From assembly GCA_038873195.1 (NCBI GenBank), contig JAVZEV010000001.1, positions 586,490-650,489 on the forward strand: a stretch of DNA of 64,000 nucleotides, read 5' to 3'. The notes under the pieces are model-generated. The model saw nothing but the letters and a program-made list of their open reading frames with translations. It was not told where the DNA came from and did no database searches. This DNA comes from Candidatus Bathyarchaeia archaeon (GTDB lineage Archaea; Thermoproteota; Bathyarchaeia; Bathyarchaeales; Bathycorpusculaceae). Shown piece by piece: positions 35,184-61,815 of the stretch; the first letter of the stretch is position 1, and every line of letters begins with the position of its first letter. Position numbers and translations under genes: made by a program.

Positions 35184-35231
35184 TAGAAACCGCCATCAAA
35201 ACCTAAAAAGAACATAAAGAAAGAAAAAAGT

Positions 35232-36686: not shown

Positions 36687-37666
36687 TCTTTCATCACCTT
36701 TCTCTTCAAAATGGATGCTGGTAAAGCGTACATGTAGAACGACCCAATTGGGTCTTTAACTTGGCTCATTAGCCTTTCAACATCCTCTTCCGTGTACTTT
36801 TCCTTCTCTTCTTCCAAACCGAGAATTGAAGCTAAAGCACTTATCATGGCTGCACCTTGTTCAGGCGCGTTGGGGCATGGACCGCCACAGCCTGTGCAGG
36901 GCATGTCAGCTTTTAAGCATCTGGCGCCGCATCCGCCTCTAGTCGCGGGTCCCATGCAGATTATTCCTTGTTCAAGCAAGCAACGCTCGGGCTCTGGAGT
37001 TTTCTCGTAAACGCGGTATATCTTGGAGATTTTCTTATTTTCTTTCTTTCGTGGGCATTCGTCACAGACTGATTTTAAGGGTGCAAGCACGGAGCCTTTA
37101 GGCGGCAATTCGCCTTTGGCTATGGCTTCAACTGCGAATAAGGTGCGTTCGACTGCTGGTGGACAGCCTGGAACGTAATAGTCAACGTCAACAACTTGGT
37201 CTAAGGTTCTGACTGTGTCGTAAAATTCTGGGATGTCAACTTCTCCCTCTTTAACATGCACTGTTGGTTTTGGTGTTTTATTTTCTGAGTTCGCCGTGGA
37301 GAAAGTCTTGAAATAGACTTTTTCGAAGATTTCCTTTTTATTAGCTAAGTTTGCTAGTCCGGGAACGCCGCCGAGGTGAGCGCATGCTCCGTAAGCGATT
37401 AGGATTTTTGATTTTTGCCGCAAAAGCTTTGCAAGGTGTTCTTGTTCTGAGTTGCGTATTCCACCGTTGAAAAAGCAAACATCGATGTATTTATCAGGCA
37501 TTGCCTCAACATCCTTGTATTTTATGTCCATTGCTACTGGCCAAAAAACGATGTCGGCGATTTGTATTACATCGAGGATTTTCTCATTTATATCCAAAAC
37601 GGCGATTTCGCAGCCTCCACAACTAGCAGCCCAATAAAAGGCTAGCTTCAGCTTGTTTTTTGCCAT
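36683..37666 (-). CDS. mvhG: [NiFe]-hydrogenase small subunit, MvhG type (module A)
   Basis: Iron-sulfur subunit between the NiFe site and MvhD. The N-terminus has 'ASCGGCEIAVLD' (C16, C19) as proximal-cluster ligands; the C-terminal half has 'CDECPRKK', 'GIICMGPATRGGCGARC' and 'PCTGCGGPC' for the medial and distal clusters. ATG chosen with 'ggag' six bases upstream, one base after the HdrB stop; a longer frame would overlap HdrB. Confidence 0.95.
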   Translation of the reverse strand: MAKNKLKLAFYWAASCGGCEIAVLDINEKILDVIQIADIVFWPVAMDIKYKDVEAMPDKYIDVCFFNGGIRNSEQEHLAKLLRQKSKILIAYGACAHLGGVPGLANLANKKEIFEKVYFKTFSTANSENKTPKPTVHVKEGEVDIPEFYDTVRTLDQVVDVDYYVPGCPPAVERTLFAVEAIAKGELPPKGSVLAPLKSVCDECPRKKENKKISKIYRVYEKTPEPERCLLEQGIICMGPATRGGCGARCLKADMPCTGCGGPCPNAPEQGAAMISALASILGLEEEKEKYTEEDVERLMSQVKDPIGSFYMYALPASILKRKVMKE

Positions 37667-37667
37667 T

Positions 37668-38558
37668 TCATTCTCCACCTTCAGTAACATGCTTCAATAT
37701 TTTAGAAGCGTCAACTCTAAGCTCGTTAAATGCAAGCTCTTCGGGCGACATGCCCATAGCTAAACCGAGCAATTGCGGATAATGCAAAACTGGAATGCCG
37801 TAAGTTTCGTTAAACATTTTTTCTATGCGCAACTCGTTCGTGTCGTACATTATGTGGCAGAATGGACAAATCGTTATCAAAGCCTCTGCACTGACTTGTT
37901 TAACATGGTTTAGCTTGTCTCTTGCAAGTTGTAAGGCGACTTTGTCGCTTACACCGACGCTTGGCGCACCGCAACATTCAGTCTCATCCATGTAATCTAA
38001 ACATGTTGCGCCTGTCGCTTCGATAAGCATTTTAAGCGTTTGAGGGTCTTCTGGATCGTCGAATCCTATGTATTCTTTTGGTCGCAGTATGTGGCAACCG
38101 TTGTGCTCCGCCACTTTAAGCATCGTGAGCGGTTTAACAACGGAATCTTTTATCTTTTCTAAGCCAACATCCTCCATTAGAACTTGCATTATATGCTTCG
38201 CGTTGACAGTTCCCTTAAACTCTAAGCCAGATTCTTTCAAATGTTTGTTTATTTCTTCGCGTAACGCCTTATCTTCCTTAAGCATCTTGTTAACTTTCTT
38301 TAAAGTTCCAGCACAACCCGGACACAAAGTGAGAATGTCCAATCCCTTTTGTTCAGCCAAAGCCAAATTTCTAGCTGCAAGAATGAGCATCATTTCGTGG
38401 CTGACTGGGTCAAGCGGGAGACCGCAACAGTTGAATTCAGGCATTTCAACAAGCTCAACGCCCAGTTTCTGCAGAACCTTTCTGGCAGATATCTCGTAGG
38501 CTGAAACACGATAAGGAATTGCGCACCCAAGAAAAATGAGATATTGATTCTTAGCCAT
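37668..38558 (-). CDS. hdrB: Heterodisulfide reductase subunit B (module A)
   Basis: Carries two complete CCG domains: Cys in 'FLGCAIP', then 'FNCCGLP', then 'LCPGC'; and 'HNGCHIL', 'TECCGAP', 'ICPFC'. In methanogen HdrB they hold two non-cubane [4Fe-4S] clusters that reduce CoM-S-S-CoB; in a non-methanogen the disulfide may differ. 296 residues is standard. Three bases after HdrC, one base before MvhG. Confidence 0.95.
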   Translation of the reverse strand: MAKNQYLIFLGCAIPYRVSAYEISARKVLQKLGVELVEMPEFNCCGLPLDPVSHEMMLILAARNLALAEQKGLDILTLCPGCAGTLKKVNKMLKEDKALREEINKHLKESGLEFKGTVNAKHIMQVLMEDVGLEKIKDSVVKPLTMLKVAEHNGCHILRPKEYIGFDDPEDPQTLKMLIEATGATCLDYMDETECCGAPSVGVSDKVALQLARDKLNHVKQVSAEALITICPFCHIMYDTNELRIEKMFNETYGIPVLHYPQLLGLAMGMSPEELAFNELRVDASKILKHVTEGGE

Positions 38559-38561
38559 TTT

Positions 38562-39089
38562 CTACTCACCCTTCTTTTCGAGATGTTTTAGAAAACTCAC
38601 TCCATGAAGTGCTTTCTTTATGCCTTCAGAATTGCCTCTTGGCAGTGGCGGCAATCCCAGGGTTTCTCGCTTCTTTATTCTTAAGTCTGGAATTTTGTAA
38701 GCGTAACCCGACTCAAGAATGCTCATAGCTTGCTCTTTAAAAACTTGAGGCACTATGCCCTTTTCTGCGGCTAAATTGCGTAGTACGCGGATTACACTGG
38801 CTACTTCAACATCTTGCGGGCAACGGTCTGTACACGTGAAACATGCCGCGCACAACCATAATGTGTCGCTGTTTAGCACGCGGTCTTTAAGTCCAAGCTG
38901 TGCCATGCGAATTATTTGTCTTGGGCGATATGTTTCGCTGAACTTGGCGACTGGACAGTCAGACGTGCATGTTCCACACTGGAAACAGCGCATCAGTTTT
39001 TCTCCGCCGTGCATTTTTGCAATTTCATACTTGAATTTAGGGTCCATTTCCGAAGCTTTAATCGGTTCTTTCTCTTCAACTTCAGACAT
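38562..39089 (-). CDS. hdrC: Heterodisulfide reductase subunit C (module A)
   Basis: Small ferredoxin-like subunit linking HdrA and HdrB. Two [4Fe-4S] motifs, 'CFQCGTCTSDCP' near residue 36 and 'CAACFTCTDRCP' near 80, as in methanogen HdrC. Its ATG overlaps the MvhD stop by one base (TAATG). Length (175) is usual. Confidence 0.94.
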   Translation of the reverse strand: MSEVEEKEPIKASEMDPKFKYEIAKMHGGEKLMRCFQCGTCTSDCPVAKFSETYRPRQIIRMAQLGLKDRVLNSDTLWLCAACFTCTDRCPQDVEVASVIRVLRNLAAEKGIVPQVFKEQAMSILESGYAYKIPDLRIKKRETLGLPPLPRGNSEGIKKALHGVSFLKHLEKKGE

Positions 39090-39526
39090 TAAGCCTTAAC
39101 CTCCACGTTTTTTAATGGACTTGGTCCAAGCTTTTTTATTTGTTCAACCATGTCCCGTACGACTGCCGCGAACTTGTCACCTTCGCTGGCTGAAACCCAC
39201 TCCAACCGTAAGCGTTCAGGTTCGATTCCGAAATCTTGAAGAACTTTCTTTAAAAGAGTTACCCTTCTTTGCGCCTTGAAGTTTCCACTAATGTAGTGGC
39301 AATCCGAAGGCAAGTGGCATCCGGCTACGAGCACGCCGTCTGCGCCGTTTTTGAAGGCTTCAAGAATGAATGTTGGGTCGATTCTGCCGCTGCACATGAC
39401 GCGTATGATTCTTATGTTTGGCGGATACTGGATTCGGCTTACTCCAGCCAAGTCTGCGCCTGCATAGCTGCACCAGTTGCAGAGAAAACCGATGATTTTT
39501 GGTTCGAATCCGTTTTTCTGGGTCAT
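39089..39526 (-). CDS. mvhD: MvhD (hydrogenase/Hdr linking [2Fe-2S] subunit, module A)
   Basis: Electron-transfer subunit that joins MvhAG to HdrA. Cys residues at 16 and 19 ('[10 protein letters not shown]'), in '[10 protein letters not shown]' and in '[12 protein letters not shown]' form the cluster site of the FlpD/MvhD family. 145 residues. The ATG overlaps the HdrA stop (ATGA) and has 'ggaggt' upstream; longer open sequence lies inside HdrA and is not coding. It is a second MvhD in this operon besides the winged-helix fusion. Confidence 0.93.
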
Positions 39527-42500
39527 GCTTGCACCTCCACAAGTGCGGCTTTGACTTGGGCAAGTATCTCTTCCGTGGTAAAGTGACCCATTATGATGGC
39601 TTTGGTTGGGCAGGCCGTGCCGCACGCTCCGCATCCTTTGCATGATGCTTCAATTACGTGTGCTGTAAGTTTGCCGTCTTTTTCCTTCATTTCTATGGCA
39701 CCGTACGGGCATAGATATTCACAAATCCTACAACCGCTACATAAATCTTCGTTCACGTTTGCAACAATTCCTTCCATCTCAAGTGTGGGTTTCGAAAGTA
39801 TGGTTGTGGCTCTTGCCGCGGCTGCGCATGCTTGCGCTATGCTTTCGTCGATGTATTTTGGTGAATGCGCCATTCCGCACAAGAAAACGCCTTCGGTGGC
39901 AAAGTCAACTGGACGGAGTTTCATGTGAGCTTCTAGAAAGAAACCGTCCTTTGTCAGTGGCACCTTGAGCATTTCGGCAATGCGTTTGTTGTCTGGGTTC
40001 GGAATTGTTGCGGCGCTTAAGATTAGAAAGTCTGGTTCGATTTCAACTGTTTCTTTCAAAACGGGCTCCCAGAAAGACACTTTTAACTTTCCATCATCAT
40101 TTGCGACTTGAGGCTTTCTTTCATCCTCGTAGTTTATGAATAAAACTCCTTTCTGTGCGGCTTCACGGTAATAGTCTTCTTTGAAACCGTAAGAGCGAAT
40201 GTCCTTGAATAAAACGTAGACTTCTGTTTCTGGGCTTAGCTCTTTAATTTTTAAAGCGTTCTTTATCGCTTGTCCACAACATATTCGCGAGCAGTTCGGT
40301 CTTTCCTCATTTCTAGCGCCTACACACTGAATCATAACTACGTTTTTAGCTTTGAATTTGCCGTTCGCAAGTTTTTCTTCCAGTTCATGTTGTGTCATCA
40401 CGCGTGGGTCTTTGCCGTAAAGGTATTCTTTTGGTTTGTATTCGGTTGCGCCCGTGGCGACTATGACGATGCCATGTTCAACTTCTTCCTCTTTGCCGCT
40501 GTGGTTTTTTATTTTTGATTTGAAGTTGCCGACGAAACCGCTGACTTCTGCCACTTCCGAGTCTAAGTGAACGTGTACCTTCTTGTTTTCCATGACTTCT
40601 TTGATTAAAGCGGTCAGTTTTTCTTTCGGGTCTTCCCCTTTTTCCAATAGATAATGAATTGTGCGTAGGTGTCCGCCGAGCTCTTTTTCTCTCTCAACAA
40701 GATGTACTTCAAACCCTTGTCTTGCAAGTTCAAGCGCCGCAGTCATGCCGGAAACTCCGCCGCCTATAACTAACCCAACTGGCGTGACGCTGATTTCTGG
40801 TTTCTTAAGCGGTTTCAAAAGTTTGGCTTTGGCTACTATTGAGCGGACGAGGTCTTTAGCTTTTTCTGTTGCTTCTTTGGGCTCGTGCATGTGCACCCAG
40901 CTGCATTGGTCGCGGATGTTGGTCATCTCGAACAAGTAGGGGTTTAAGCCCGCTTCCTGGACTGTTTCTCTGAAAAGCGGCTCATGCGTTCTAGGCGTGC
41001 AAGAAGCTACGACGACGCGGTTCAGATTGTGCTGTTGGATTTTTTCGCGGATGAGCTTCTGCGTGTCCTGCGAGCAAGTGTAGAGGTTGGCTTCAGCGTA
41101 AACCACGTAGGGCAAAGTTTTAGCATACTCCACAACTTCAGGAACGTTGACGACTCCGCCAATGTTGATTCCGCAGTGACAGACGAAAACGCCAATGCGC
41201 GGTTCTTCTTGGCTGACGTCTCTTTCTGGCGGATACTCTTTAACTGTCACAAGTTTTCCTCTTTCAGTAGCTACAACGTTCATTGCTTTGGCTGCTGCTC
41301 CGCTTGCTTGCGCGACACTTTCTGGAATGTCTTTGGGAGCGCTGAAGGCTCCGCAAACGAATATGCCGGGTTTTGATGTCTCTAATGGCGTAAAATGTCC
41401 GGTTTCGCAGTAGTTGTATTTGTTGAGTTTTATTCCCAAAGCTTTAGCAAGTTTTTCAACGCCTTTTGGCGGTTGCATTCCGATGGATAGGACGACCATG
41501 TCGAATTCTTCTGTCTTAGGTGTTTCATCCTCAACATAGTGAACGAAAAGGTTGCCGGTCAACGGGTCTTCAGTCACGCCTGCAACTCTTGACCTCACAA
41601 ATTTTATGCCCCACTCTTCTTTAGCGCGGTTGTAGTAGGCGTCAAATTCTTTTCCGTAAGCTCGCAAGTCCATGTAAAAGATTGTTGGCTCCAATTTGGT
41701 TGGCGTGTGTTCTTTGGCGATTACGGCTTCTTTCATGCCGTACATGCAGCATGCTGCGGAACAGTAAGTGTTGCCGAGCTGATAATCTCTCGAGCCTACA
41801 CATTGAATAAACGCAATTTTCTTGGGAATCTCGCCATCCGAAGGGCGCACGACAAGTCCACCGTAGGGTCCGGATGCGCTCAAGATGCGTTCGAATTCTA
41901 TGCTTGTCACCACGTTTGGATAACGTCCATAACCATATTCGGTTTTCAATCTTGCATCGAAGGGTTCAAAGCCAGGCGCAAGTATTATTGAGCCGACTTT
42001 GAGTGTGGCTTCGCTGTCTTGCTGGTCGTATGCCACTGCTTTCGCTTTGCAGATTTCGTAGCATGTTCCGCAACCAATGCATTTTTCACGGTCTATTTTG
42101 TACTTGAGCGGAACTGCCTGTGGATAATCAACGTAAATTGCGCCTCTTTCGCTTAAACCTTCATTATACATGTCAACCGCTTCGATTGGACATTTTTGTG
42201 CACATAAGCCGCAGCCGTTGCATTTGTCTTCGATTATGTAACGACTACGTTTTCGAAGTTTTACTTCGAAGTTTCCAGCTTCGCCGTTTAAGCCTAATAT
42301 TTCCGTGTTTGTCAGAATCGTGATGTTCGGATGTCTTCCCGTCGCCACGAGTTTAGGCGAGAGAATGCACATTGAGCAGTCGTTTGTTGGAAATGTTTTG
42401 TCCAGTTGAGCCATGACGCCGCCGATGCTTGCGCCTTCATCAACCAAATATACTTTGAAGCCGGAATCCGCCAAGTCTAACGATGCTTGTATGCCGGCAA

Positions 42501-42552
42501 CTCCTCCACCGACGACTAGAACAGCTCCAACTTTCTCCTTTGCCATTTTCAC
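39523..42552 (-). CDS. hdrA: Double HdrA fusion (two HdrA flavoprotein units in one chain)
   Basis: A 1009-residue protein, about 1.5 times normal HdrA. Residues 1-440 are an HdrA flavin unit without its N-terminal domain: '[11 protein letters not shown]', 'CSMCILSP', two ferredoxin motifs ('[12 protein letters not shown]', '[12 protein letters not shown]') and '[11 protein letters not shown]'. From about 447 a complete HdrA follows: '[11 protein letters not shown]', '[11 protein letters not shown]', a second FAD fold '[11 protein letters not shown]', 'CSRICCGQ', then '[12 protein letters not shown]' and '[12 protein letters not shown]'. Each unit should bind one FAD. The second FAD unit lacks the CxxC after the GG. 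GTG start overlapping the upstream stop; ATG two codons later is equally possible. Confidence 0.93.
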
Positions 42553-43304
42553 TTAACCTCCAAAGCCTTGTAAAATGGAGTTTGACCTTCCACATGGTCT
42601 AGAGCTATCATGTTTCTACGGCGCATGTCAACAATCTGCCTTAAAACAGCCGCAGGTTTCATTTCAACCATTTCTGCCAAGTCCTTCACAGAGAAGGGTT
42701 TGGTTTTGGTTAAGACGTAGATTTTGTGTCGAACAAACTCTTCATTGACAATTTCATCCAGCAACTCGTCGAATTCATCTTGCGACAGTTTCTCGCCATA
42801 AACGTTAACGCCTTCGGTTAGCTCTTTCTCTCTTCCAAGCAAAACTCTCAAACGAAAATCTGAAGCAGCATTCTTGGCTGCTAACACGTTAACCTTAATT
42901 TTTGAACCCAAATCTTTGCTTCGCAACGGAGAAGACCCAAGTTTTCCGATTTCTCTGGAAAACTCTTTGGCGTAATATTCAAAGTTCTTTTCATCTAATG
43001 GTGAATGCCAAACTAATTTTACGCGTTGAGGCTCCAATCCAGCTAATGCAACGAGTTTTGTAAGCATTTTTACGGCGCGTTCTGCTTGAAGGTTTCCTTC
43101 TTGGTAGTGGCAGTCTGGTGGTTTGCAACCCACAAGCATGACGCCGTCAACTCCGTTTGCAAGCGTGTCCAAAACGATGACTGGGTCCACTCTTCCAAGA
43201 CACATGATTCGAACAACATTAACGTTTGATGGAACTTCAGTTTCGTTTTGACAAAAAGCCCAGTTACACATGAAACAAACAATTTTAGGGTCGTCTGCCT
43301 CCAT
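42549..43304 (-). CDS. MvhD fused to a C-terminal winged-helix domain
   Basis: Residues 1-135 are MvhD-like, with Cys at 9 and 12 and later 'IMCLGRVDP' and 'GCKPPDCHYQ', so the [2Fe-2S] site is intact. Residues about 150-195 are a charged linker. The final 50 residues ('FSVKDLAEMVEMKPAAVLRQ', then a beta wing 'ALDHVEGQTPFYKAL') look like a winged helix-turn-helix. The domain could dock subunits or bind DNA. The gene lies 2 bases after the GltD-like gene and its stop overlaps the start of the double HdrA. Confidence 0.85.
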   Translation of the reverse strand: MEADDPKIVCFMCNWAFCQNETEVPSNVNVVRIMCLGRVDPVIVLDTLANGVDGVMLVGCKPPDCHYQEGNLQAERAVKMLTKLVALAGLEPQRVKLVWHSPLDEKNFEYYAKEFSREIGKLGSSPLRSKDLGSKIKVNVLAAKNAASDFRLRVLLGREKELTEGVNVYGEKLSQDEFDELLDEIVNEEFVRHKIYVLTKTKPFSVKDLAEMVEMKPAAVLRQIVDMRRRNMIALDHVEGQTPFYKALEVK

Positions 43305-43306
43305 TT

Positions 43307-45070
43307 TTATCGTCCCTCCGTTGCTGCCAAGGCAAGACTCATAATTTGCTCGTTAGGCATTTTCTTCATCGTTATCGCTTGTTCCGGGCAACGTGCAGCA
43401 CATATTCCACAGCCTTTGCAAAGGTCCTCGTTTACTTTGGCAATTTCTCGTTCGTCCTTTTTGACTGCACCAAACGGGCAAACAACCGCGCACACATTGC
43501 AGCCCACGCAGAGGTTTTCGTCAACAACTGCCTTGTCACCTTCGCAAAGCTCCAAGCTTGCGAGACATTCTGCGCATGGTCCACATCCCAAACAGCGAAA
43601 AGCTTCAAACATTGCTTTCTGCTTTGTTTTCTCTAAATATTCAGCTGCTTCCTCAAAGCTCAAACGTGGCTTTTCTATTGGCGGCTCATATCTTCGTTCT
43701 TTCTTTTTCAGAGAACCCCAGTTTTTAACCCACGTTACTTCTTCAACGGCATCGTCTCTTCCTTTTCGCAAATCTTGCCCAGTCAAGTAGAGATAGATGG
43801 AAACAGCTGCTCTTTTGCCTGCTCCAACGGCTTCAATTATGCTTGCAGGGCCAGTGGCTATGTCGCCTCCTGCAAACACGCCTGGCATGTTGGTTTCTAA
43901 TGTTAATGGGTCAACTTTCATTGATGGTGCTCTTGCTTCTTTGTCCAGAAGTTCCTTGGGTATGCAGGCAGACTCTGCAACTTGTCCCAGTGCGGGGATT
44001 ACCATGTCTACTTCATATTGATGTTCAGAGAAACTTATTGGAACGGGGCGCCTTCTTCCGCTTTCGTCTGGTTCGCCTAGTCGCATTCGCAAGCATTCGA
44101 TGGCTTTGACCTTGCCATTTTCGCCTATAATCTGTTTTGGCGCGACTAAGAAATAGAATTTTACGCCGTCTTTCTCAGCCAACTCCACTTCATGCGGCAG
44201 CGCGGGCATCTCTTCACGAGAACGCCTATACAATATCATAACTTCTTTTGCACCGAGTTTTTTGGCTGTTCTGGCAGCGTCTATTGCGCTGTTTCCGCCG
44301 CCAACAACCGCAACTTTTTCACCTACTTCAACACGTTCTCCAAGCGCAATTTTTCTCAGGAAATCCACGGCGTTTATGACGCCCTCCAAATCTTCGCCAG
44401 GCACGTTCAATTTCATGCCAAGCTGTGTTCCGATAGCTAGAAAGATGGCGTTATAGCCATCTTTGCGTAAGCTTTCAATTGTAATGTCTTTTCCAAATTC
44501 CACGCCAGTTTTTATTTCCACACCCAAATCTTTGATGTAGGCAATTTCGTTTAATACAACAAATTTTTCCAAGCGAAAATCGGGTATGCAATACCGCATC
44601 ATGCCGCCGGGTTCAGACATACGTTCAAAAACGGTTACGAGATAACCACGTTTTGCAAGTTCATAGGCTGCGGTTATACCTGCTGGTCCTGCGCCGACTA
44701 TGGCGATTTTTTCTTTGTGTTTCTTTGGTATGGGTTTAGGTTTTACTCGTTCATATTCACGTTCTACGTCGGCGACGATTCGTTTTAGAGCGCGAATTGC
44801 TACGGCTTGGTCCACGTTTGTTCTTGCACATGCATCCTCGCATGGGCTGAAACAGACTCTTCCACAAATTGCGGGAAAAGGCATGTCTTGCCTTATGAGT
44901 TCGACTGCTTCTTTGAATTTACCTTTTTGAAGCAGAGAAACGTATCCTTGAACGTTGACGCGTGCTGGACAGGCTGAGCGGCATGGTGGCAGTTGTCTCT
45001 TTACATTTGTGCTACTACCACTTGTCATTGTTAAACCAGCTTGATGTAGAATATTATCCTTATCTGCCAA
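43307..45070 (-). CDS. GltD-like FAD/NAD(P)H oxidoreductase with ferredoxin tail
   Basis: Resembles the small subunit of glutamate synthase and NfnB. N-terminal Fe-S region ('PPCRSACP', 'ICGRVCFSPCEDAC'), FAD fold 'IVGAGPAGITAA' near residue 124, NAD(P)H fold 'VVGGGNSAID' near 267. Two C-terminal [4Fe-4S] motifs, 'CVGCNVCAVVCP' and 'CKGCGICAARCP', complete it. It probably lets the module A Hdr complex exchange electrons with NAD(P)H. First gene of a tightly packed operon, 75 bases after the RHH-GcvH gene. TTG start with 'aggtgg' upstream; ATG at codon 15 is possible. Confidence 0.9.
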   Translation of the reverse strand: MADKDNILHQAGLTMTSGSSTNVKRQLPPCRSACPARVNVQGYVSLLQKGKFKEAVELIRQDMPFPAICGRVCFSPCEDACARTNVDQAVAIRALKRIVADVEREYERVKPKPIPKKHKEKIAIVGAGPAGITAAYELAKRGYLVTVFERMSEPGGMMRYCIPDFRLEKFVVLNEIAYIKDLGVEIKTGVEFGKDITIESLRKDGYNAIFLAIGTQLGMKLNVPGEDLEGVINAVDFLRKIALGERVEVGEKVAVVGGGNSAIDAARTAKKLGAKEVMILYRRSREEMPALPHEVELAEKDGVKFYFLVAPKQIIGENGKVKAIECLRMRLGEPDESGRRRPVPISFSEHQYEVDMVIPALGQVAESACIPKELLDKEARAPSMKVDPLTLETNMPGVFAGGDIATGPASIIEAVGAGKRAAVSIYLYLTGQDLRKGRDDAVEEVTWVKNWGSLKKKERRYEPPIEKPRLSFEEAAEYLEKTKQKAMFEAFRCLGCGPCAECLASLELCEGDKAVVDENLCVGCNVCAVVCPFGAVKKDEREIAKVNEDLCKGCGICAARCPEQAITMKKMPNEQIMSLALAATEGR

Positions 45071-45145
45071 TTATATTAAGCCACCTAAATCAAGTTTGAC
45101 GCAAAATTGACATAAAGTAATAAGGAAAAAAGAGGAAAATTGGGG

Positions 45146-45754
45146 CTATTCGCGCAGTCTTCCTTCCAGTTTGTTAACCAGCTTGTTGTATTCTCTTGGA
45201 CCAAGTAAACCCTTGAGTTCCTGCTCCAGAACCAACGAGTTCTTCGGTTTTATCTCCACAATCCAGCCTTCACCGTAGGGGTCTTCGTTGATTATGTTTG
45301 GTTCATTCCTAAGCTTCTCGTTAACTTTGGCTATTTTACCGCTGACTGGTGCGTAGAGGTCGAACATGAACATCCAAGTTTCCGCAACGCCGAAAGGCTC
45401 CATCTTGTTAACTTCTTTACCCACAGCTTCAGTCATTACATGGGCTATTCCTTTCAAGTGTCTCTGTGCGTAGTCGGATACGCCCACGCGGATGTTTCCT
45501 TCAGGTGTGACTTGAGCCCATGTGTGTTTTGGCGTGTAGAGCAACAGTTCTGGTGTGACTAGAAGCTCTTTACGTTTTTCTGTGGGAATTCCTTGGGTGC
45601 GCATGAGCTCTTCTAAGCGAAGGCGGATGGCTTCTGAGACGAATTCTGATATGCTTCTGTAGCGTCCTGTTTTGATTGCTTCTTCGATTTCTTTTATGAG
45701 TTCTGTTCTTAGGCTCACGGTTTTCCATTCTGATGTTTTTTCTTTTTCATTCAT
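45146..45754 (-). CDS. Ribbon-helix-helix protein fused to a GcvH-like domain lacking the lipoyl lysine
   Basis: Residues 10-52 form a ribbon-helix-helix DNA-binding domain ('WKTVSLRTELIKEI' strand and helix, then 'SISEFVSEAIRLRL'). Residues 75-172 are a glycine-cleavage-H-like hammerhead ('HTWAQ', 'GVSDYAQ', 'LYAPVSGKI', 'NEDPYGEGW'). The segment matching 'VESVKAVSD' in true H proteins reads 'AETWMFMFD', so the lipoyl lysine is Met 128 (codon at 45371-45373). It cannot be lipoylated there. Directly upstream of module A on the same strand, it is a candidate regulator sensing a small molecule or a protein partner. ATG with 'ggaggt' nine bases upstream. Confidence 0.88.
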   Translation of the reverse strand: MNEKEKTSEWKTVSLRTELIKEIEEAIKTGRYRSISEFVSEAIRLRLEELMRTQGIPTEKRKELLVTPELLLYTPKHTWAQVTPEGNIRVGVSDYAQRHLKGIAHVMTEAVGKEVNKMEPFGVAETWMFMFDLYAPVSGKIAKVNEKLRNEPNIINEDPYGEGWIVEIKPKNSLVLEQELKGLLGPREYNKLVNKLEGRLRE

Positions 45755-45781
45755 TTTACATCAACCTCCTTTACATCTGAT

Positions 45782-45792
45782 TGATATATAAC
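45782..45792 (-). promoter_or_regulatory. A/T-rich promoter region of the RHH-GcvH gene
   Basis: On the minus strand 'gttatatatca' lies about 30 bases before the start codon. The surrounding 150-base gap is unusually A/T-rich and contains further 'atatatat' and 'atgcatat' elements plus two 'tttacatc' repeats near the ribosome site. These might be operator half-sites of the RHH protein; this is inference. Confidence 0.3.
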
Positions 45793-45905
45793 ACAAGTCA
45801 GAAATATATATCTAATGCATATATTTTATTTATAGTAAATATCATATTAATCTAAACAACAAACATATTTATCTGTGCACATTAAAAATTCACACACTGC
45901 TGACT

Positions 45906-46112
45906 TTATTCTTTTACTCTGCCAAAATTCGACAGGTTCCACACGCGCTCATGCACGTAGTAAACAACCGTTTTTACAATAAGCTCTGTGATACCAACAA
46001 TAGTTCCTAAAGTTAGGTCCTTACTAAATATGAAAACCAAAAATATCGTTGTTAAAGTTGCAACAATCCTCCAAGAAACTGCCTTCACCACACTTCTAAT
46101 TGGTTTCTCCAT
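45906..46112 (-). CDS. DUF2061 small membrane protein
   Basis: A 68-residue protein starting 'MEKPIRSVVKAVSWR', with two hydrophobic helices (about residues 17-30 and 34-52) and the 'YYVHERVW' end typical of DUF2061. Function unknown; the family is widespread and is sometimes found near sulfur metabolism genes. It lies on the minus strand before the 150-base A/T-rich gap that leads to the RHH-GcvH gene. Confidence 0.85.
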   Translation of the reverse strand: MEKPIRSVVKAVSWRIVATLTTIFLVFIFSKDLTLGTIVGITELIVKTVVYYVHERVWNLSNFGRVKE

Positions 46113-46243: not shown

Positions 46244-46271
46244 ACAAATAGTAGTAAATACCATAAACGCG

Positions 46272-47357
46272 GTGAACTTTTTGGAAAGCAGAAAAGTGCA
46301 AAAAGTAGGATATTCAACAATGACCGTGTCGCTACCAAGCGAATGGGCAAAACAGAACAATATTAATCCAGGCGACATCGTCTTCCTCTTGCCCGAAAAA
46401 GATGGTACGCTGAAAATCGTGCCAAGCCACGTGGCACAAAAAGAAGAAGCAGATGAATACATAATAAATGCTGATGCATGCGACGAGCACGGACTGCTTG
46501 AAAGAATAATCGTGGGAAGCTACATACTGGGACGAGATGTCATAAGAGTAACCTCTGCAACCAGAATAGGAAAAGCACACGTGGACGAGATTCGCCGAAT
46601 TGTCCGCAAACTAATAGGATTAGGCATTCTCGAAGAAACCCCAAAAAACATTCTGCTACAATGCTCCGTCGACCCAGCAAAATTCAAACTTGACATGCTA
46701 ATCAGGCGGTTGTCTCTAATTTCGTCAACAATATTGTCTGAAACCATGCAAGCCTTTCTTGAAGGAAACGAAACCTTAGCCATAGAAGCCATAAACCGCG
46801 AAGACGAAGCCGACACAATCTACTATTTAGCAGTGCGTCTACTCTTGGCTGCGCAACAAAAACCAGAAATTGCAGAACAAACAGGCGCAACCGACGTGCT
46901 CTTCATTCCTGCAACACGCTTGATACTTCAATATTTAGAATTGATTGCAGACTACTCGGAAGACATGGCTAAAAAAATCATCGACCTCGAAGTTTACCGT
47001 CGTAGATTGCCGAAAAACGTGATTGAAAAAATCTATCACCTCAGCGAGCTAACACAAACCATCTTCCAGAAAGCTTTAGACTGCGTTTTCACACGCGACC
47101 TCAAAGTTGCAAACAGCGTGCTAGAAATGAAAAGCGTACTCCAAACTGAATCGGACAAGCTCATGCGGGAAATTCCTGAAATTCCATACTTGAGAGCAAT
47201 AATTTCGTGTTTAAACAAAATTGCAGACAAGGGCGCCACGATAGCAGACATCGCGATAAACAGAGCGCTGGAGCAACCGAGTAAGGAAGTGGAGAACATT
47301 ATTCGCACAGTAAAACATGTGCGAACTTTACCATTAGCCGCGAAGAAGAAAACTTAA
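46272..47357 (+). CDS. AbrB-PhoU fusion regulator
   Basis: N-terminal residues 1-50 are a SpoVT/AbrB swapped-hairpin domain ('KVQKVGYSTMTVSLPSEWA', 'NPGDIVFLLPE'). The rest is all-helical with two PhoU-like repeats (about 135-230 and 245-340). This architecture is common in archaea and is thought to regulate phosphate or metal uptake, though no pst genes are nearby. GTG start. 361 residues. Confidence 0.85.
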   Translation: MNFLESRKVQKVGYSTMTVSLPSEWAKQNNINPGDIVFLLPEKDGTLKIVPSHVAQKEEADEYIINADACDEHGLLERIIVGSYILGRDVIRVTSATRIGKAHVDEIRRIVRKLIGLGILEETPKNILLQCSVDPAKFKLDMLIRRLSLISSTILSETMQAFLEGNETLAIEAINREDEADTIYYLAVRLLLAAQQKPEIAEQTGATDVLFIPATRLILQYLELIADYSEDMAKKIIDLEVYRRRLPKNVIEKIYHLSELTQTIFQKALDCVFTRDLKVANSVLEMKSVLQTESDKLMREIPEIPYLRAIISCLNKIADKGATIADIAINRALEQPSKEVENIIRTVKHVRTLPLAAKKKT

Positions 47358-47450
47358 CATTCTTTTTGCGTCATAATTACTTCAGATTTGGCTTGAGAAG
47401 GTTAATATAAACAGAAATAAATAGTATATATAGAAGGTGTGTCATGCACC

Positions 47451-47927
47451 ATGAACGACTTTGAAGAAGCGTTACGAAATATAGATGTTTTCTGCAAAGT
47501 TTTGGTTAACAAAATCGTCGGAAACGAAGAAAACAGCAACATCACAATCGAGCCGATGGAACATCTCCTATATAAAAAGTACATAATAAGCGAACAGGTT
47601 GAGTCTAGTCCTATAGGCAAAAATTTCATTCCTCTTCCACAACTTGAAGAACCTTTAATTGACATTTTCGAGGAAGACAGGTACGTTAGGATTCTGATGC
47701 AGTGCCGCTGTAAGGAACAAAAAGTTACAATTCACCCAAGCATTGACGGTTTAGAAATCTGCAAGAGAGAATGTCACATTGATTCAGAAGGCACGGAAGT
47801 GTGTGTTGACAAATGCCAGAAGATAAATGTGCCAGTTAAAGAATTGCAGCTTGAAGACATGACTGTGAGATGTTCAAATAACGAAGTTTTTGAGGTTACT
47901 ATTCCAAGAAAAAGCTACGAAAGCTAG
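47451..47927 (+). CDS. Cys-containing protein with possible Hsp20-like fold
   Basis: The C-terminal half ('VRILMQCRCKEQKVTI', 'INVPVKELQLEDMTVRCSNNEVFEVTIPRK') has the strand order and closing strand of small heat-shock/alpha-crystallin domains. Seven cysteines sit in the inserted middle region and may bind metal. The N-terminal 70 residues are helical and acidic. The ATG was chosen because 'aaggtg' lies 11 bases upstream; a GTG four codons earlier has no room for a ribosome site. Family assignment is tentative. Confidence 0.55.
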   Translation: MNDFEEALRNIDVFCKVLVNKIVGNEENSNITIEPMEHLLYKKYIISEQVESSPIGKNFIPLPQLEEPLIDIFEEDRYVRILMQCRCKEQKVTIHPSIDGLEICKRECHIDSEGTEVCVDKCQKINVPVKELQLEDMTVRCSNNEVFEVTIPRKSYES

Positions 47928-47940
47928 AGCGCAGTCTCAG

Positions 47941-48141
47941 TTATTGTGAAGCGGCGCCTTTCCGTTTTATTCGAATTCTACACGCTTCTTCTCCGGAACA
48001 TTTGGAACACGTGTAGATAACGTCAAACTCGTTTTTTTCAGGGTCAGAAGGATTAACGATAAATGCGAAACATTCTTCGCCTTTGCTAATTGATGCTCCG
48101 CAGCAAAAGCATTTATGTTCTTTTAAAGCGACAACTTTCAT
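47941..48141 (-). CDS. Small zinc-finger protein (66 aa)
   Basis: Two CxxC pairs, 'CFCCG' and 'CSKCSGEEAC', about 35 residues apart form a likely zinc-binding treble-clef or ribbon. The rest is short beta strands and a basic C-terminal tail. The ATG was chosen at 'MKVVALKEH'; longer open sequence upstream is Phe-rich and not protein-like. It follows module B on the same strand with a 127-base gap. Function unknown. Confidence 0.6.
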   Translation of the reverse strand: MKVVALKEHKCFCCGASISKGEECFAFIVNPSDPEKNEFDVIYTCSKCSGEEACRIRIKRKGAASQ

Positions 48142-48268
48142 TGTTTTTTCCCGAGAGAACATGTGGTGAACGGTTGTTCTTAACGTTTTCCACGAACAAA
48201 ACAAGAAAATAACGTGATAAAAATAAAAAAAGAAAATCGAAAAGTGCTTCTGAGCACACAAAGGTTTC

Positions 48269-49144
48269 TTACATGATCTTGCTCAGCACCTTGTCCAATC
48301 GGATTTTATGGAAGTCAAGCGCAAGCTCTTTAGGGTCTATTCCCAACGCTAAGCTTAGAAGTTCAGAGTAATGGATAACGGGTATGTTGTATTCTTCCTT
48401 GTAAGCAGATTTTATCAACATCTGTCCAAGGTCTAAAGTTAAGAAGCAGAAAGGACAAAGCGTAACAATGCAGTCGGCACCCGCTTTTGTTGTGTTAACG
48501 ATTTTGTCACGGGCAATCGCTAACGCAACATCGTCAGCATAACCTCTCAAGAGCCCTCCACAACATTTCAGTTTGTTTCGGTACCAGATGCTTTTTGCGC
48601 CTAATGCTTCGATTAAATCGTCAAAGATGTGCGGGCGTTCTGGGTCGTCGAATTTCAAAAGCGCGCTTGGTCTCAGCAAGTGGCATCCTGAGAATGATGC
48701 TACTTTAAGACTGTTCAAATCTTTAACAACGTTTTTCTTTAAGCGTTCTAAACCAACATCATCCATTAAGACTCTCAAGTAATGTTTTACTTCCTTGGTT
48801 CCTTTGAATTCTTTGCCAGCGTTGGACAAGATTTTGTTGACTCTTGCTTTCAGTTTCGGATTTTCTCTCAATAGGTTGTTTGCCATGGCTAGAGATTCGA
48901 AACAGCCGGTGCACAATGTTACAATGTCGAGGTCGGCTTCTTCGGCTAAGCAAATGTTGTGTGCGGCGATTGCTAGGCTGGTTTCCATGTCTATGGATTG
49001 TAAGGGTGGTGGAGCGCAGCAGGTCATGTTGTCTAAGTCGACGAGTCCTATTCCAAGTCTGGTTAAGGCTTTTCGTGCTGATGTTTCATAGTTTGGTTGG
49101 CGGGCGGGTATGGTGCATCCTAAAAAGAGCGCGTAACTTGTCAT
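48269..49144 (-). CDS. hdrB: Heterodisulfide reductase subunit B, second copy (module B)
   Basis: Both CCG domains complete: 'FLGCTIP', 'MTCCAPP', 'LCTGC' and 'FSGCHLL', 'LKCCGGL', 'LCPFC'. It is recognisably related to HdrB of module A but clearly diverged. The ATG overlaps the HdrC2 stop in ATGA. It ends module B, which has no maturation protease of its own. Confidence 0.93.
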   Translation of the reverse strand: MTSYALFLGCTIPARQPNYETSARKALTRLGIGLVDLDNMTCCAPPPLQSIDMETSLAIAAHNICLAEEADLDIVTLCTGCFESLAMANNLLRENPKLKARVNKILSNAGKEFKGTKEVKHYLRVLMDDVGLERLKKNVVKDLNSLKVASFSGCHLLRPSALLKFDDPERPHIFDDLIEALGAKSIWYRNKLKCCGGLLRGYADDVALAIARDKIVNTTKAGADCIVTLCPFCFLTLDLGQMLIKSAYKEEYNIPVIHYSELLSLALGIDPKELALDFHKIRLDKVLSKIM

Positions 49145-49659
49145 GGCGTTCCTTCCTTCTTCCACTGTATTTTATCGAATCCTGTTGCGGCAAGTATTTT
49201 CTTCAATGTGTCTAAGCCTGCTGGTCTAAGCGGTGGTAAGCCATATTCTGGTCTTTTCTTTTCCACGAATTTGGATATTGGAACTATGCGTCCTTCATTC
49301 ATCAGTCCAGTCGCGAATTCCGAGTAGATGTTGGGGATGTGTCCTTCTTTGATGGCTATGTTTCTTAACGCGTAGATAACGTCTGCTATTTCGACTTTCT
49401 GCGGACACCTTTCTTGGCAGTTGTAGCATGAACTGCATAGCCAAATGGCGCCGCTTGTGAGAACTTCTTGTTTCTCGCCTAAAAGTGACAGTCTGATAAT
49501 GTCTCGGGGGTTGTAGCGTTCAGTGGTTTTGGCGACTGGGCAACTGCTGGCGCATGTTCCGCATTGATAGCATAAGGCTATGGTTTCGCCGCCTAACTGG
49601 CTTCTTATCTCGTCGGAAAATGAGGTTGCAGAGGTTTTTTGTTCTTTTTCATGCTTCAT
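49141..49659 (-). CDS. hdrC: Heterodisulfide reductase subunit C, second copy (module B)
   Basis: Two [4Fe-4S] motifs, 'CYQCGTCASSCP' and 'CSSCYNCQERCP', and an Arg-rich 'RYNPRDIIRLSLLG' helix between them, as in HdrC. ATG chosen with 'ggag' eight bases upstream; a GTG nine codons earlier overlaps the preceding stop. The N-terminal 20 residues are Lys/Glu/Ser-rich. Confidence 0.93.
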   Translation of the reverse strand: MKHEKEQKTSATSFSDEIRSQLGGETIALCYQCGTCASSCPVAKTTERYNPRDIIRLSLLGEKQEVLTSGAIWLCSSCYNCQERCPQKVEIADVIYALRNIAIKEGHIPNIYSEFATGLMNEGRIVPISKFVEKKRPEYGLPPLRPAGLDTLKKILAATGFDKIQWKKEGTP

Positions 49660-49682
49660 TATGCTTTCTCCTTTTGTGAAAG

Positions 49683-52094
49683 TCACATTAACTGCAGTGG
49701 ACCAAGCTTTTCTATTCTTTCAGTCATCATCTGCGCGGCTTCTGCGAATTTGTCGCCTTCTATGAAAACCATGTGGAACATTTCTAAACGTTCTGGCTCT
49801 ATGCCGTATTCCTTTAACAGCACTTTTGCAAGGTCTACTTTCTTTTGAGCCTTTTGACTGCCGACTTCGTAATGGCAACCGTCAGTTTTGCATCCTACAA
49901 CCATGACGCCTTGAGCGCCAGCTTTGAAGGCTTGTAAGAACTGGTGGACTTGCAAGATGCCGGTGCATGGGACTTTCATTACTCTGACGTTGGCTGGATA
50001 CTGCATCATCGCCATGCCAGAAGAGTCCACGGCTGTGTGACCACATTCTGAACAGGTTATAGCAAGAATTAACGGTTTGGATGTTCCATTCACAGATAAG
50101 AGCGCGTTCATTTGGGCTTCCATTTGGTTTGGTCGTGAGTGTCTAAGTTCTATGGCGTTGACGGGGCATGTGCCAACACAAATGCCACATCCTTCACATT
50201 TGAGGTCAGAAACTTGTGCAACAAAGTGATCTTCGCCCTTAGGCACTAGTGTTATGGCGTTGAATGGGCAGATGACTGGACAGAACTCGCAGTCTCCGCA
50301 GTACTCTTCATTCACGAATGCTGTTCGCTGGTCTTTGATTATTTTGCCAGTGGACAAGAATTTGGCGGTTTTCACAGCTGCTGAGTGAGCGTGCAGAGAG
50401 CTTGTCGGAGCGTCTTTTGGAAAAGTTGCGCCTCCACACAAGTATATTCCTCTGATTTTGGTTTCTGTTGGTCTCAGTTTGGCGTTGTATTCTTTGAAGA
50501 AGCCGTCTTGGTCAAGTTCTATTCCGAGCATTTCGGCAAGTTCTTTAGTGTCTTCTGAGGGCACCATTGCGGTGGCTAAAACTACTAGGTCGGCTTCGAG
50601 TTCGAAGAATCTTCTTAAGATAGCGTCTTCAACGTCTACGATTAAGATGTTTCCGTCTGGGTCGTGTGAAATTTCAGTTGGTCTGCCTTTAACGAACTTT
50701 ATTCCCATTTCTCGGGCTTTTTCATAATAGTATTCGTGTTCTCTTCCCGTTGTTCTGATGTCGATGTAACAGATTGTAATGTCCGTGTCTGGATATGCAG
50801 ATTTAATGAGCATCGCGTTTTTCAGAGATATCATACAGCAAATGCTTGAGCACCATGGGTTCCATCGTCGGTCGCGTGAGCCAACACATTGGATGAAAAC
50901 GATTCTTTTGGCGGGTTTACGGTCTGAAGGCTTTATAATTGCGCCGTTTGTGGGTCCGAAACCGTCAATCATTCTTGCAAGTTCAAGATTGGTTATTACA
51001 TCGGGATATTCGCCGTAGTGATATTCTTTTATAACGCTTGGGTCGTACTCTTTGAAGCCTGTCGCGACAATTATGCCGCCAACATTAAGCGTTAACTTCT
51101 CAGTTTTCTGGTTTAATTTGACGGCTTTTGTGGGGCAAATCTCCACACATTTAGCACATTCTTGGAATTTGCAAGCGCTCTCGTCGATTACGTAGACTGG
51201 CGGATGAACTGGTGGAGTGTTTATGTAGATTGCCTTTCGTGTTTTCAGTTTCGCATTATATTCGTCTGGCACTTCTACTGGACAGACTGTCGTGCAAAGG
51301 TCGCAACGAACACATTTGGACTCATCAACGTAGCGTGGTTTCTTCTCAACTGTAACCTTGTAGTTTCCAGGAACTCCTTCAACCTTGACAACTTTTGAGT
51401 TAGTTAATATGTTTAGGTTTGGAATTTCGGAAAATCCAGAGCGGTAAACGCATTTTCTTGAAGTGTGAGTTATAGCTTTCACGTCGGAAGCCGGAGATTG
51501 TATGCAGATGGCGCAGTCGTCTGTTGGAAAGAATCTTCCAGCACGAGCCGCTAGACCGCCAAGAAATGGAGCTTTTTCAACAAGATGCACTTCAAATCCC
51601 AAATCAGCCAAATCTTCGGCAGCTTGCATCCCAGCAATTCCACCGCCTATCACAAGAACAGACTTGACAGCTGGAAACTCCAGCTTCTCCAATGGTTCGA
51701 GAAGTTTGGCACGTTCAATGGCAGCTGAAAGCATCGCTTTGGCTTTTTCTGTAGCTTCTAATGGTGCGTCTCGGTGAGGCCATGCGCAGTGGTCTTTGAG
51801 GTCTATAACTTCCACGAGGTATGGGTTAAGCCCAGCTTCTTCTGCGGCTTTGACAATTTTTACTTCGCTCAGTTTAGGAAGGGTCTCTGCTACGACTAGT
51901 CGGTTTATCTTTTTGCTTTTTATGGCGTCCACGATAGTTTTTAGTCCTTCGCCTCTCCAGAACTCGTTTCCTCGCACAACAAGAGCTACGCCTGAAACTT
52001 TCTTCACGTGCTCTGTCAAGGCTTTGAAATCCAGTATTTCAGCGAGTTGCTTTCCACAATCAGATAGGAATACTCCAACTTTTACTTCTTCCAT
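49683..52094 (-). CDS. hdrA: HdrA-MvhD fusion with altered N-terminal domain (module B)
   Basis: HdrA flavoprotein with MvhD attached at the C-terminus. FAD fold 'VIGGGIAGMQAA' near residue 147, 'CAICIQSP', 'CVRCDLCTTVCP', 'CSSICCMISLK', 'CGDCEFCPVICP' and 'CEGCGICVGTCP' are intact. From about 655 an MvhD domain follows with 'ITCSECG', 'VPCTGILQV' and 'VVGCKTDGCHY'. The N-terminal domain lost the cysteines other HdrA proteins have: 'VFLSDCGKQL' replaces 'VFVCHCG' and the 'TCS' segment is gone. It lies between MvhA2 and HdrC2 and replaces two separate genes. Confidence 0.93.
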   Translation of the reverse strand: MEEVKVGVFLSDCGKQLAEILDFKALTEHVKKVSGVALVVRGNEFWRGEGLKTIVDAIKSKKINRLVVAETLPKLSEVKIVKAAEEAGLNPYLVEVIDLKDHCAWPHRDAPLEATEKAKAMLSAAIERAKLLEPLEKLEFPAVKSVLVIGGGIAGMQAAEDLADLGFEVHLVEKAPFLGGLAARAGRFFPTDDCAICIQSPASDVKAITHTSRKCVYRSGFSEIPNLNILTNSKVVKVEGVPGNYKVTVEKKPRYVDESKCVRCDLCTTVCPVEVPDEYNAKLKTRKAIYINTPPVHPPVYVIDESACKFQECAKCVEICPTKAVKLNQKTEKLTLNVGGIIVATGFKEYDPSVIKEYHYGEYPDVITNLELARMIDGFGPTNGAIIKPSDRKPAKRIVFIQCVGSRDRRWNPWCSSICCMISLKNAMLIKSAYPDTDITICYIDIRTTGREHEYYYEKAREMGIKFVKGRPTEISHDPDGNILIVDVEDAILRRFFELEADLVVLATAMVPSEDTKELAEMLGIELDQDGFFKEYNAKLRPTETKIRGIYLCGGATFPKDAPTSSLHAHSAAVKTAKFLSTGKIIKDQRTAFVNEEYCGDCEFCPVICPFNAITLVPKGEDHFVAQVSDLKCEGCGICVGTCPVNAIELRHSRPNQMEAQMNALLSVNGTSKPLILAITCSECGHTAVDSSGMAMMQYPANVRVMKVPCTGILQVHQFLQAFKAGAQGVMVVGCKTDGCHYEVGSQKAQKKVDLAKVLLKEYGIEPERLEMFHMVFIEGDKFAEAAQMMTERIEKLGPLQLM

Positions 52095-52104
52095 TTTTCA
52101 TCCC

Positions 52105-53562
52105 TCACCTTCTCAACGTTTTTACTAAACGCTTTTCACTGTCGTAAATTTCAACTTCAAGCGGCATCTCGCCAACAGCAAAGTGTGTAGCACAAGCAAA
52201 GCATGGGTCGTAAGCTCTGAAAGCCATCTCAACCATGTTCAGTATGCCGTCGCTGACTTTACCGTTGCGTATCAAGCCCTTTGCCGCGTTCTTTATGGAC
52301 ATGCAAATGCCAGGCGCATTGTGGGTTGTAGCCACTATCAAGTTGACTTTTTTGGCTAAGGCTTTCTCGTCAAGTATGTAATGGTGAATAAGCGTGCCTC
52401 TGGCTGCTTCCACGATGCCTACGCCTTCTCCGGGCTTTCCCGGCTTGTTTTTGATGTCCTTTCTTGTTATGCCCGGGTCTGTTATCAGCTCCAGCGCGCG
52501 TTCCGCTGCGTATAGAAGCTCGATTAATCGTGCCCAGTGGAATGCCAAAGTGGCGTGAACAGGTTTGCCGCCGAGTGTTTTGTACATTCTCTTGTATTCT
52601 TCGTTTGCCAAGGGCGTTGCCATGCCTTCAGCGGCGTTTAATCTGCCTAAGGGTCCAACACGGTATATGCCGCTTTCTGGTCCGTCAACGAATCCGTTCC
52701 ATCCAACTTTTTTCAGGTATGGCAGTTTAACGTAAGTCCATGGTTCAACGTGTTCTTCAATAACGTCTAAGTATTCTGAAGGGGCAAATTTCACGAATTC
52801 CTTCCCGTTTGGGTCTACGACTCGAACTTTGCCGTCGTAGAAGTTCACGTGGTTGTTTTTGTCAACTGTGCCCATGTAGTAGGTTTTAAGCGCATAAGGC
52901 TCACTTTTAACTAAGTTCACGTAATCAGCGTTTTTGAGAACTATGTCATCAAAGAGTTTCAAGGTGAACTTTGCAAACTCCACGCAGCTTCTAATCATTG
53001 TTTCTATTTCTCGCCGCTCCTCTTCAGACAAAGCCTTAGCGATTCCACCTGGCACACAAGCGCTCACGGGATGGGTGGGTCTTCCGCCAAGCATGCCGGT
53101 TATTTTTTGTCCATAAGCCCTATGCTTTATCACTTCTTTGCCGATTTCTAAGCCAGCCTTTTCTATTACGCCGAGAACGTTTCTTTTTTCTGGAGGAGCG
53201 TCTGGACCAACAACAAAATCTGGACCGCCTAAGAAGTAGAAGTGTAAGATGTGGTCGTAAATGTAGTAGGCGACGTATTCTAACTCTCTCAGTTTCTTGG
53301 CTGTTTCTGTTGGTTCCACATTGAACGCGGCGTCTAAGGCTTTGGCGCTTGCCATGTGATGCGCGACTGGACATACACCGCAGATTCTCGTGGTTATTAT
53401 AGGTAAATCTTCGGCTCTTCTTCCCTCGCAGAATTTTTCGAAGCCTCTGAGTTCTGGAACCTGCAAATAAGCGTTTTCCACGTCACCCTTGTCGTTTAAG
53501 AATATGGTTATTTTTCCGTGACCTTCAAGTCGAGTTATTGGATTTATTACTATTTCTTTCAT
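52105..53562 (-). CDS. mvhA: [NiFe]-hydrogenase large subunit, second copy (module B)
   Basis: Very similar to MvhA of module A over its whole length. Nickel ligands C61 and C64 ('RICGVCPVAHH') and C454 and C457 ('DPCFACATH') are kept, as is a 25-residue C-terminal peptide, so it needs the same protease. 485 residues. ATG overlaps the MvhG2 stop. The 10-base gap to HdrA-MvhD indicates one transcript. Confidence 0.95.
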   Translation of the reverse strand: MKEIVINPITRLEGHGKITIFLNDKGDVENAYLQVPELRGFEKFCEGRRAEDLPIITTRICGVCPVAHHMASAKALDAAFNVEPTETAKKLRELEYVAYYIYDHILHFYFLGGPDFVVGPDAPPEKRNVLGVIEKAGLEIGKEVIKHRAYGQKITGMLGGRPTHPVSACVPGGIAKALSEEERREIETMIRSCVEFAKFTLKLFDDIVLKNADYVNLVKSEPYALKTYYMGTVDKNNHVNFYDGKVRVVDPNGKEFVKFAPSEYLDVIEEHVEPWTYVKLPYLKKVGWNGFVDGPESGIYRVGPLGRLNAAEGMATPLANEEYKRMYKTLGGKPVHATLAFHWARLIELLYAAERALELITDPGITRKDIKNKPGKPGEGVGIVEAARGTLIHHYILDEKALAKKVNLIVATTHNAPGICMSIKNAAKGLIRNGKVSDGILNMVEMAFRAYDPCFACATHFAVGEMPLEVEIYDSEKRLVKTLRR

Positions 53563-54497: not shown

Positions 54498-54632
54498 CTT
54501 GTCACCTGTCTGAAGCAATTTTGATGAAAGAATATGATAATTGCAGTTTCTATAATTTAAATTTAGCCATTAGTAAATAGAAAAATGATGATTAAGCCTT
54601 ATGCGTTAAGCTTAGCTTAAACATGTGACGAG

Positions 54633-61726: not shown

Positions 61727-61774
61727 CTTGACAATCTCCGCTTTCCATGATAGTTTTAGATGATACAAGGGAAA

Positions 61775-61788
61775 ACACTTATTAAAAA
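61775..61788 (+). promoter_or_regulatory. Divergent promoter region between HdrA and HdrD-like genes
   Basis: 'cttattaaaaatct' is A/T-rich in both directions and lies about 30 bases before the HdrD-like start and about 50 before the HdrA start. It can serve as TATA box for the former, near-leaderless, and possibly also for the latter. Confidence 0.3.
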
Positions 61789-61815
61789 TCTTATGCCCCA
61801 ATTTAGTTAAAAGTG

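Follow-up and report, generated by a model that had tools for sequence, protein, structure and literature searches.

The gene at 45146–45754 (minus strand) of the window, the 64,000-nucleotide stretch of Candidatus Bathyarchaeia DNA analysed here, encodes a ribbon–helix–helix (RHH) domain fused to a glycine-cleavage H-protein (GcvH) fold that has lost the lipoyl lysine, and a conserved inverted repeat with a single exact copy in the genome lies in its own promoter. We consider this protein, RHH-GcvH, to be probably a locally acting one-component autoregulator with a NikR-like layout, in which the H fold serves as a regulatory or assembly module.

Domain structure of RHH-GcvH

The frame is open over the whole of 45146–45754 on the minus strand and translates into 202 aa; the gene call draws on this reading, on Pfam and NCBIfam matches and on homologues. 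The RHH domain was placed at residues 10–50 (45605–45727, minus) from the Pfam model RHH_1 and a family profile. In the window protein, RHH_1 matches residues 12–49 with 19.6 bits, 0.9 bit below the curated cut-off of 20.5. The assignment is stronger at the family level, where it is supported by matches to RHH_1 in 16 of the 22 RHH-GcvH homologues (best E 4e-6) and by NikR appearing as the first PDB match when the profile of the RHH-GcvH N-termini was searched against solved chains (E 0.004). From the alignment to NikR and general knowledge of RHH proteins, we take W10, T12, and S14 to be the DNA-contact strand positions. RHH domains fold as dimers, and the RHH part of the AlphaFold2 (AF2) monomer model, in which the strand appears as a helix with pLDDT of about 55–80, was therefore left uninterpreted.

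The GcvH fold spans residues 71–194 (45173–45544, minus) and is complete. Pfam GCV_H matches it with 103.9 bits against a cut-off of 22.2, the pLDDT block means of this part of the model are mostly 89–98, and Foldseek places the H-domain model on 3ab9, the lipoylated H-protein of E. coli, with a TM(target) of 0.94. The RHH–GcvH fusion proposed in the initial annotation is thus borne out by the RHH_1 and NikR matches together with the GCV_H score. Ordinary GcvH proteins share the complete fold and about 35–45% identity with RHH-GcvH, but they carry the lipoyl lysine, whereas RHH-GcvH has a methionine in an aromatic hairpin, an added RHH domain and no gcv gene context. An ordinary GcvH with the lysine and GcvP are encoded elsewhere in the same genome, so RHH-GcvH is not its glycine-cleavage H protein.

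Loss of the lipoyl lysine

Our alignment set 51 proteins of the RHH-GcvH clade, of which 47 are complete and the others truncated or with a shifted start, against 44 ordinary GcvH proteins. The former lipoyl hairpin of the window protein comprises residues 125–131, E-T-W-M-F-M-F (45362–45382, minus), and the codon of Met128 (45371–45373 in plus-strand coordinates) falls at the lipoyl-lysine position of every ordinary GcvH compared. Lysine occupies this position in 44/44 ordinary GcvH proteins and in 0/51 members of the RHH-GcvH clade, which upholds the proposed lysine loss; no member restores a lysine when aligned. The emphasis on Met128 itself stands only in part: it does replace the lysine in the window protein, but the residue is not conserved, being M in 38 members, W in 8, P in 3, N in 1, and L in 1. 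W127 is present in 51/51 members (V in ordinary GcvH), F129 in 49/51 (A or S in ordinary GcvH), and position 131 is F, H, or Y in 49/51 (S in ordinary GcvH). Since W127 and F129 are kept while residue 128 varies, the alignment identifies the aromatic flank (E-T-W127-x-F129), rather than Met128, as the conserved feature of the hairpin. The window protein contains no cysteines. Other diverged H folds outside glycine cleavage exist, i.e. Streptococcus pyogenes GcvH-L (5a35) and the GcvH-like models TIGR03077 and NF045810; RHH-GcvH differs in scoring far under the cut-offs of the latter two, neither of which includes an RHH domain.

Distribution, origin and selection

Among 257 genomes of the class, full-length RHH-GcvH fusions were confined to four families, all belonging to the same Bathyarchaeia order, and no further fusion was found outside the order in 398 genomes sampled across the phylum (E 1e-43). 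In a scan of named genomes, the RHH forms occurred only in 'Candidatus Bathyarchaeota' among the matches listed. A limited, less-than-full literature search returned no paper on the fusion. Tandem pairs of the gene occur in two of the four families, and also in a single genome from the family to which the window belongs.

In the tree, the H domains of the fusions lie on one side of a branch with an SH-aLRT of 100%. As they form one clade, a single origin is likely, and one fusion and one lysine loss would fit the H-domain tree. Comparison with relatives gave dN of 0.002–0.08 at dS of about 0.3–1.7, indicating from the sequences that the gene is under purifying selection and is not decaying. 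An extra copy in locus L188 (G181:C40:4984-5373) has an in-frame stop and is apparently decaying; an intact copy lies elsewhere in that genome.

Gene neighbourhood

Neighbouring genes were compared in 46 loci and the window, with 43 loci assessable per side; the genomes are related, and the counts given here are not independent events. The neighbour kept most constantly is AbrB-PhoU, a divergently encoded regulator with AbrB (MazE-type) and PhoU domains (46272–47357, plus; assigned by Pfam and locus comparison), present in 41 of the 43 loci with enough upstream sequence. A small DUF2061 membrane protein (45906–46112, minus; Pfam, 66.9 bits) is encoded between the two regulators in the window and in some relatives only. 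Two small proteins without Pfam matches (47439–47927 and 47941–48261), the second with CxxC pairs, lie beside AbrB-PhoU in many relatives.

The placement of RHH-GcvH ahead of an Hdr-Mvh operon, noted in the initial annotation, was confirmed: the two share a strand, and the module lies 3′ of RHH-GcvH. The module begins with a GltD/NfnB-like NAD(P)H flavoprotein with ferredoxin domains (GltD; 43307–45070, minus; Pfam, with NfnA and the glutamate synthase small chain as PDB relatives) and continues with the linked hydrogenase/Hdr genes MvhD, HdrA, MvhD, HdrC, HdrB, MvhG, MvhA, and a hydrogenase protease (34689–43304, minus; ORF reading and comparison); Pfam FlpD matches 42549–43304. The region 34689–63272 of the window holds at least two complete Hdr-Mvh modules (34689–45070 and 48269–54518) within 30 kb, and a third HdrA/HdrBC-like set at 59360–62934 falls in the same 30 kb.

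The proposed linkage to Hdr genes holds for most loci but not for all. The GltD-MvhD-HdrA-...-MvhGA module lies downstream in 32/43 loci, two of them after a gene for a TauE transporter. In 7/43, the gene is followed by TauE, a 124-aa protein (S124) and a Hox-type NiFe hydrogenase cluster or its start, and in 4/43, including the extra, apparently decayed copy in L188, no redox operon follows directly. Altogether, NiFe hydrogenase genes adjoin RHH-GcvH in 39 of the 43 assessable loci. In L180 and L181, RHH-GcvH stands beside AbrB-PhoU but is not followed by a hydrogenase operon, and in G035 AbrB-PhoU is divergent to an Hdr operon with no RHH-GcvH between them. Many genomes that lack RHH-GcvH have close relatives of MvhA, hydrogenase genes with at least 77% identity, and we therefore rejected a strict rule by which RHH-GcvH tracks NiFe hydrogenase. 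In such genomes the operon is usually short, HdrC-HdrB-MvhG-MvhA, and has no GltD. Nearly all orthologues of the flavoprotein GltD (at least 63% identity) come from RHH-GcvH genomes (28 of about 30), and GltD is the better correlate of RHH-GcvH.

Several other arrangements were seen in these loci. The 124-aa protein (L037:8110-8484; relatives in L039, L044, and L173) is without a Pfam match and contains several conserved cysteines; beside RHH-GcvH, its gene always separates TauE, or a TauE-like gene, from the genes that follow. At L214:8100-10511 (G113), a GltD-like flavoprotein is apparently fused to a trimethylamine-methyltransferase-like N-terminus in one ORF of 803 aa, with a gene for a corrinoid protein and an HdrA operon beside it; the fusion is either real or an assembly error. 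At L054:10404-12183 and L208:2653-4845, a gene for a CoA-disulfide-reductase-like flavoprotein follows that of the ordinary GcvH, and in L208 MvhG and MvhA come after this pair.

A predicted operator in the RHH-GcvH promoter

A perfect inverted repeat, GATATATA-N14-TATATATC (45783–45812, no strand assigned), overlaps the RHH-GcvH promoter. The initial annotation had pointed to 45755–45905 and to the region before 45070 as places for operator half-sites; the repeat lies in the former, and in the latter RHH-GcvH's own repeat is absent and the palindrome present is of another sequence. In aligned upstream regions, the repeat is kept, with N14 or N15, across the clade that has a single copy of the gene, and at least 14 of the 16 repeat positions are matched in 26 of 28 RHH-GcvH promoters of this clade. 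Genome-wide, the exact repeat occurs once in its own genome, with one other place at two mismatches. The N15 form has exactly one mismatch-free copy per genome in ten relatives, always just before RHH-GcvH, and the reversed-pattern control gave no matches in those ten. Before the GltD, TauE, Hdr, and Mvh genes, at best 12/16 positions were matched; the high score of the AbrB-PhoU gene is due to the intergenic region that it shares with RHH-GcvH. As the exact repeat was found only at RHH-GcvH in its own genome and the ten relatives, a regulon of the inverted repeat was rejected.

The half-site centres are 22–23 bp apart. The tandem clade, in which the contact position matching S14 is R or K, is without the GATATATA repeat, and several of its members carry GTATnTAT-N12-ATAnATAC instead. 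This correlation between residue and operator is what self-recognition predicts, in a comparison of two clades only that is not independent of descent. The inverted repeat is mostly TATA and may in part be core promoter. The unique, conserved palindrome is new, and we predict that it is the operator of RHH-GcvH; together with the RHH family matches, its position in the gene's own promoter supports the suggestion that the protein is a putative transcription factor.

A near-palindrome, TAGTATTTACTA (the second box), has separate copies before the two divergent genes: TGATATTTACTA (45833–45844, minus), 78 bp before RHH-GcvH, and TGGTATTTACTA (46252–46263, minus), 8 bp before AbrB-PhoU. Most relatives with the DUF2061 gene between both regulators have a copy at both promoters. 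The second box TRGTATTTACTA is not enriched, with 16 genome-wide matches against 26 in the reversed control, and the same arrangement was seen only at the two promoters of the pair, so a regulon of this box was also rejected. Since only these two sites are arranged in this way and the inverted repeat is unique, both boxes appear to be local to the RHH-GcvH/AbrB-PhoU pair.

A probable separate promoter of the GltD-Hdr-Mvh operon

In the gap between RHH-GcvH and GltD, a T-rich stretch follows the RHH-GcvH stop codon, and in the alignment 18 loci share a TTAATATAT element with a BRE-like GGTGGC in front of it, represented in the window by GGTGGC-TTAATATAAT (45070–45085, minus). The stretch and the conserved BRE/TATA-like element suggest that the GltD-Hdr-Mvh operon probably has its own promoter, and on the same grounds a common operon of RHH-GcvH with GltD-Hdr was dropped. 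The description of the gene as lying on the same strand just ahead of the operon is thus right as to position, but does not extend to co-transcription. The position of the promoter element also makes the listed GltD start, TTG at 45070, probably too early, the true start probably being the ATG at 45028. Next to the operon TATA box lies a palindrome, TCAAACTTGA (45090–45099). In several relatives, the C..G and T..A pairs of a palindromic YYAANNTTRR near the operon promoter (45070–45099) covary; this element is perhaps the operator of another regulator.

Proposed mechanism and alternatives

In the mechanism that we propose, the N-terminal RHH domain would bind DNA as a dimer, and the C-terminal H barrel, unable to carry lipoate, would regulate this binding. 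Two RHH dimers would occupy GATATATA-N14/15-TATATATC, with half-sites two helix turns apart, and the bound protein would block its own promoter and possibly affect the divergent AbrB-PhoU. The former lipoyl hairpin, with its aromatic E-T-W-x-F, could be a surface for tetramer assembly or for docking of a small ligand or partner protein, and either event would change DNA binding; the initial annotation proposed a lipoyl-like ligand, a thiol or the Hdr complex itself as what the protein could sense. In the end, this would probably act on the NAD(P)-linked NiFe-hydrogenase/Hdr genes alongside, via AbrB-PhoU or via weaker, undetected sites.

This layout resembles that of NikR, an N-terminal RHH followed by a C-terminal regulatory domain, which the RHH profile found first among solved chains; NikR operator half-sites are likewise two helix turns apart, matching the spacing of the RHH-GcvH repeat, and a location next to NiFe-hydrogenase genes is a further likeness. 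The nickel-responsive NikR differs in that its RHH is joined to an ACT domain, whereas RHH-GcvH has an H-protein barrel and no cysteines, and a nickel role is unsupported. The matches of NikR models to the window protein are limited to the RHH stretch and lie far below cut-off, the C-terminal part belonging to GCV_H. The NikR operator, GTATGA-N16-TCATAC (PMC7055735), also differs in sequence from the predicted RHH-GcvH operator.

The same-strand adjacency seen in 39 of 43 loci, 32 of them Hdr-type and 7 Hox-type, could mean that RHH-GcvH acts directly on the GltD-Hdr-Mvh (or TauE-Hox) operon, as repressor or activator, according to the redox state or assembly of the enzyme. An NAD(P)(H)-reacting flavoprotein occurs in both types of neighbourhood, and the YYAANNTTRR palindromic element adjoins the operon TATA box. 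However, that palindrome differs in sequence from the RHH-GcvH repeat, which is itself missing before GltD and TauE (maximum 12/16), and the operon seems to have a promoter of its own; direct control of the hydrogenase genes is thus a candidate only, possible but on balance doubtful. Somewhat less likely is that the H domain is a signal-free stabiliser or oligomerisation module of a constitutive autorepressor, its proximity to hydrogenase reflecting an inherited gene block. The freedom of residue 128 (M/W/P/N/L) between fixed hydrophobic flanks is as expected for an interface, L180 and L181 retain the pairing with AbrB-PhoU where no hydrogenase operon follows, and the similar hydrogenase genes (at least 77% identity) do without RHH-GcvH in many genomes. 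Set against this, W127 and F129 were kept when the adjoining operon switched from Hdr to Hox type and GltD orthologues track RHH-GcvH, both of which suggest a physiological link.

Two further readings are highly improbable. The initial annotation drew an analogy to LbpA, the lipoylated H-like protein of sHdr sulfur oxidation, and the H fold beside Hdr genes could suggest a lipoyl carrier of an sHdr-like system with a DNA-binding add-on. The alignment contradicts this, as none of the 51 members has the lysine that is strictly conserved in published LbpAs, which mostly have two cysteines and LplA encoded nearby (PMC6067878). The family also lacks those cysteines, the window protein having none at all, no LplA accompanies it, the ordinary GcvH with its lysine and GcvP are encoded elsewhere in the genome, and the neighbouring module is of the HdrABC-MvhADG hydrogenase type, unlike sHdr; the analogy therefore fails. 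We give as little weight to a type II antitoxin, with a ParD-like RHH and an unusual toxin-binding domain: the ParD-family match is weak (25.3 bits against a cut-off of 46.2), and in none of the loci could a toxin gene be recognised after RHH-GcvH, where genes for large redox enzymes or a transporter come next.

Beyond the local autoregulator that we favour, a more speculative and rather unlikely extension is that the dead lipoyl hairpin senses the redox or assembly state of the NAD(P)-linked NiFe-hydrogenase/Hdr complexes and signals it to DNA, forming with the divergent AbrB-PhoU a dedicated two-regulator switch found in one Bathyarchaeia order only.

Bathyarchaeia are an abundant uncultured group in which the control of hydrogenase and electron-bifurcating complexes is poorly known, and the predicted 30-bp operator makes an in vitro test possible without culturing the archaeon. 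If the proposed autoregulator is correct, RHH-GcvH would represent a family of one-component regulators that use an H-protein barrel as their regulatory domain, and would clearly exemplify the reuse of a cofactor carrier in signalling or assembly.
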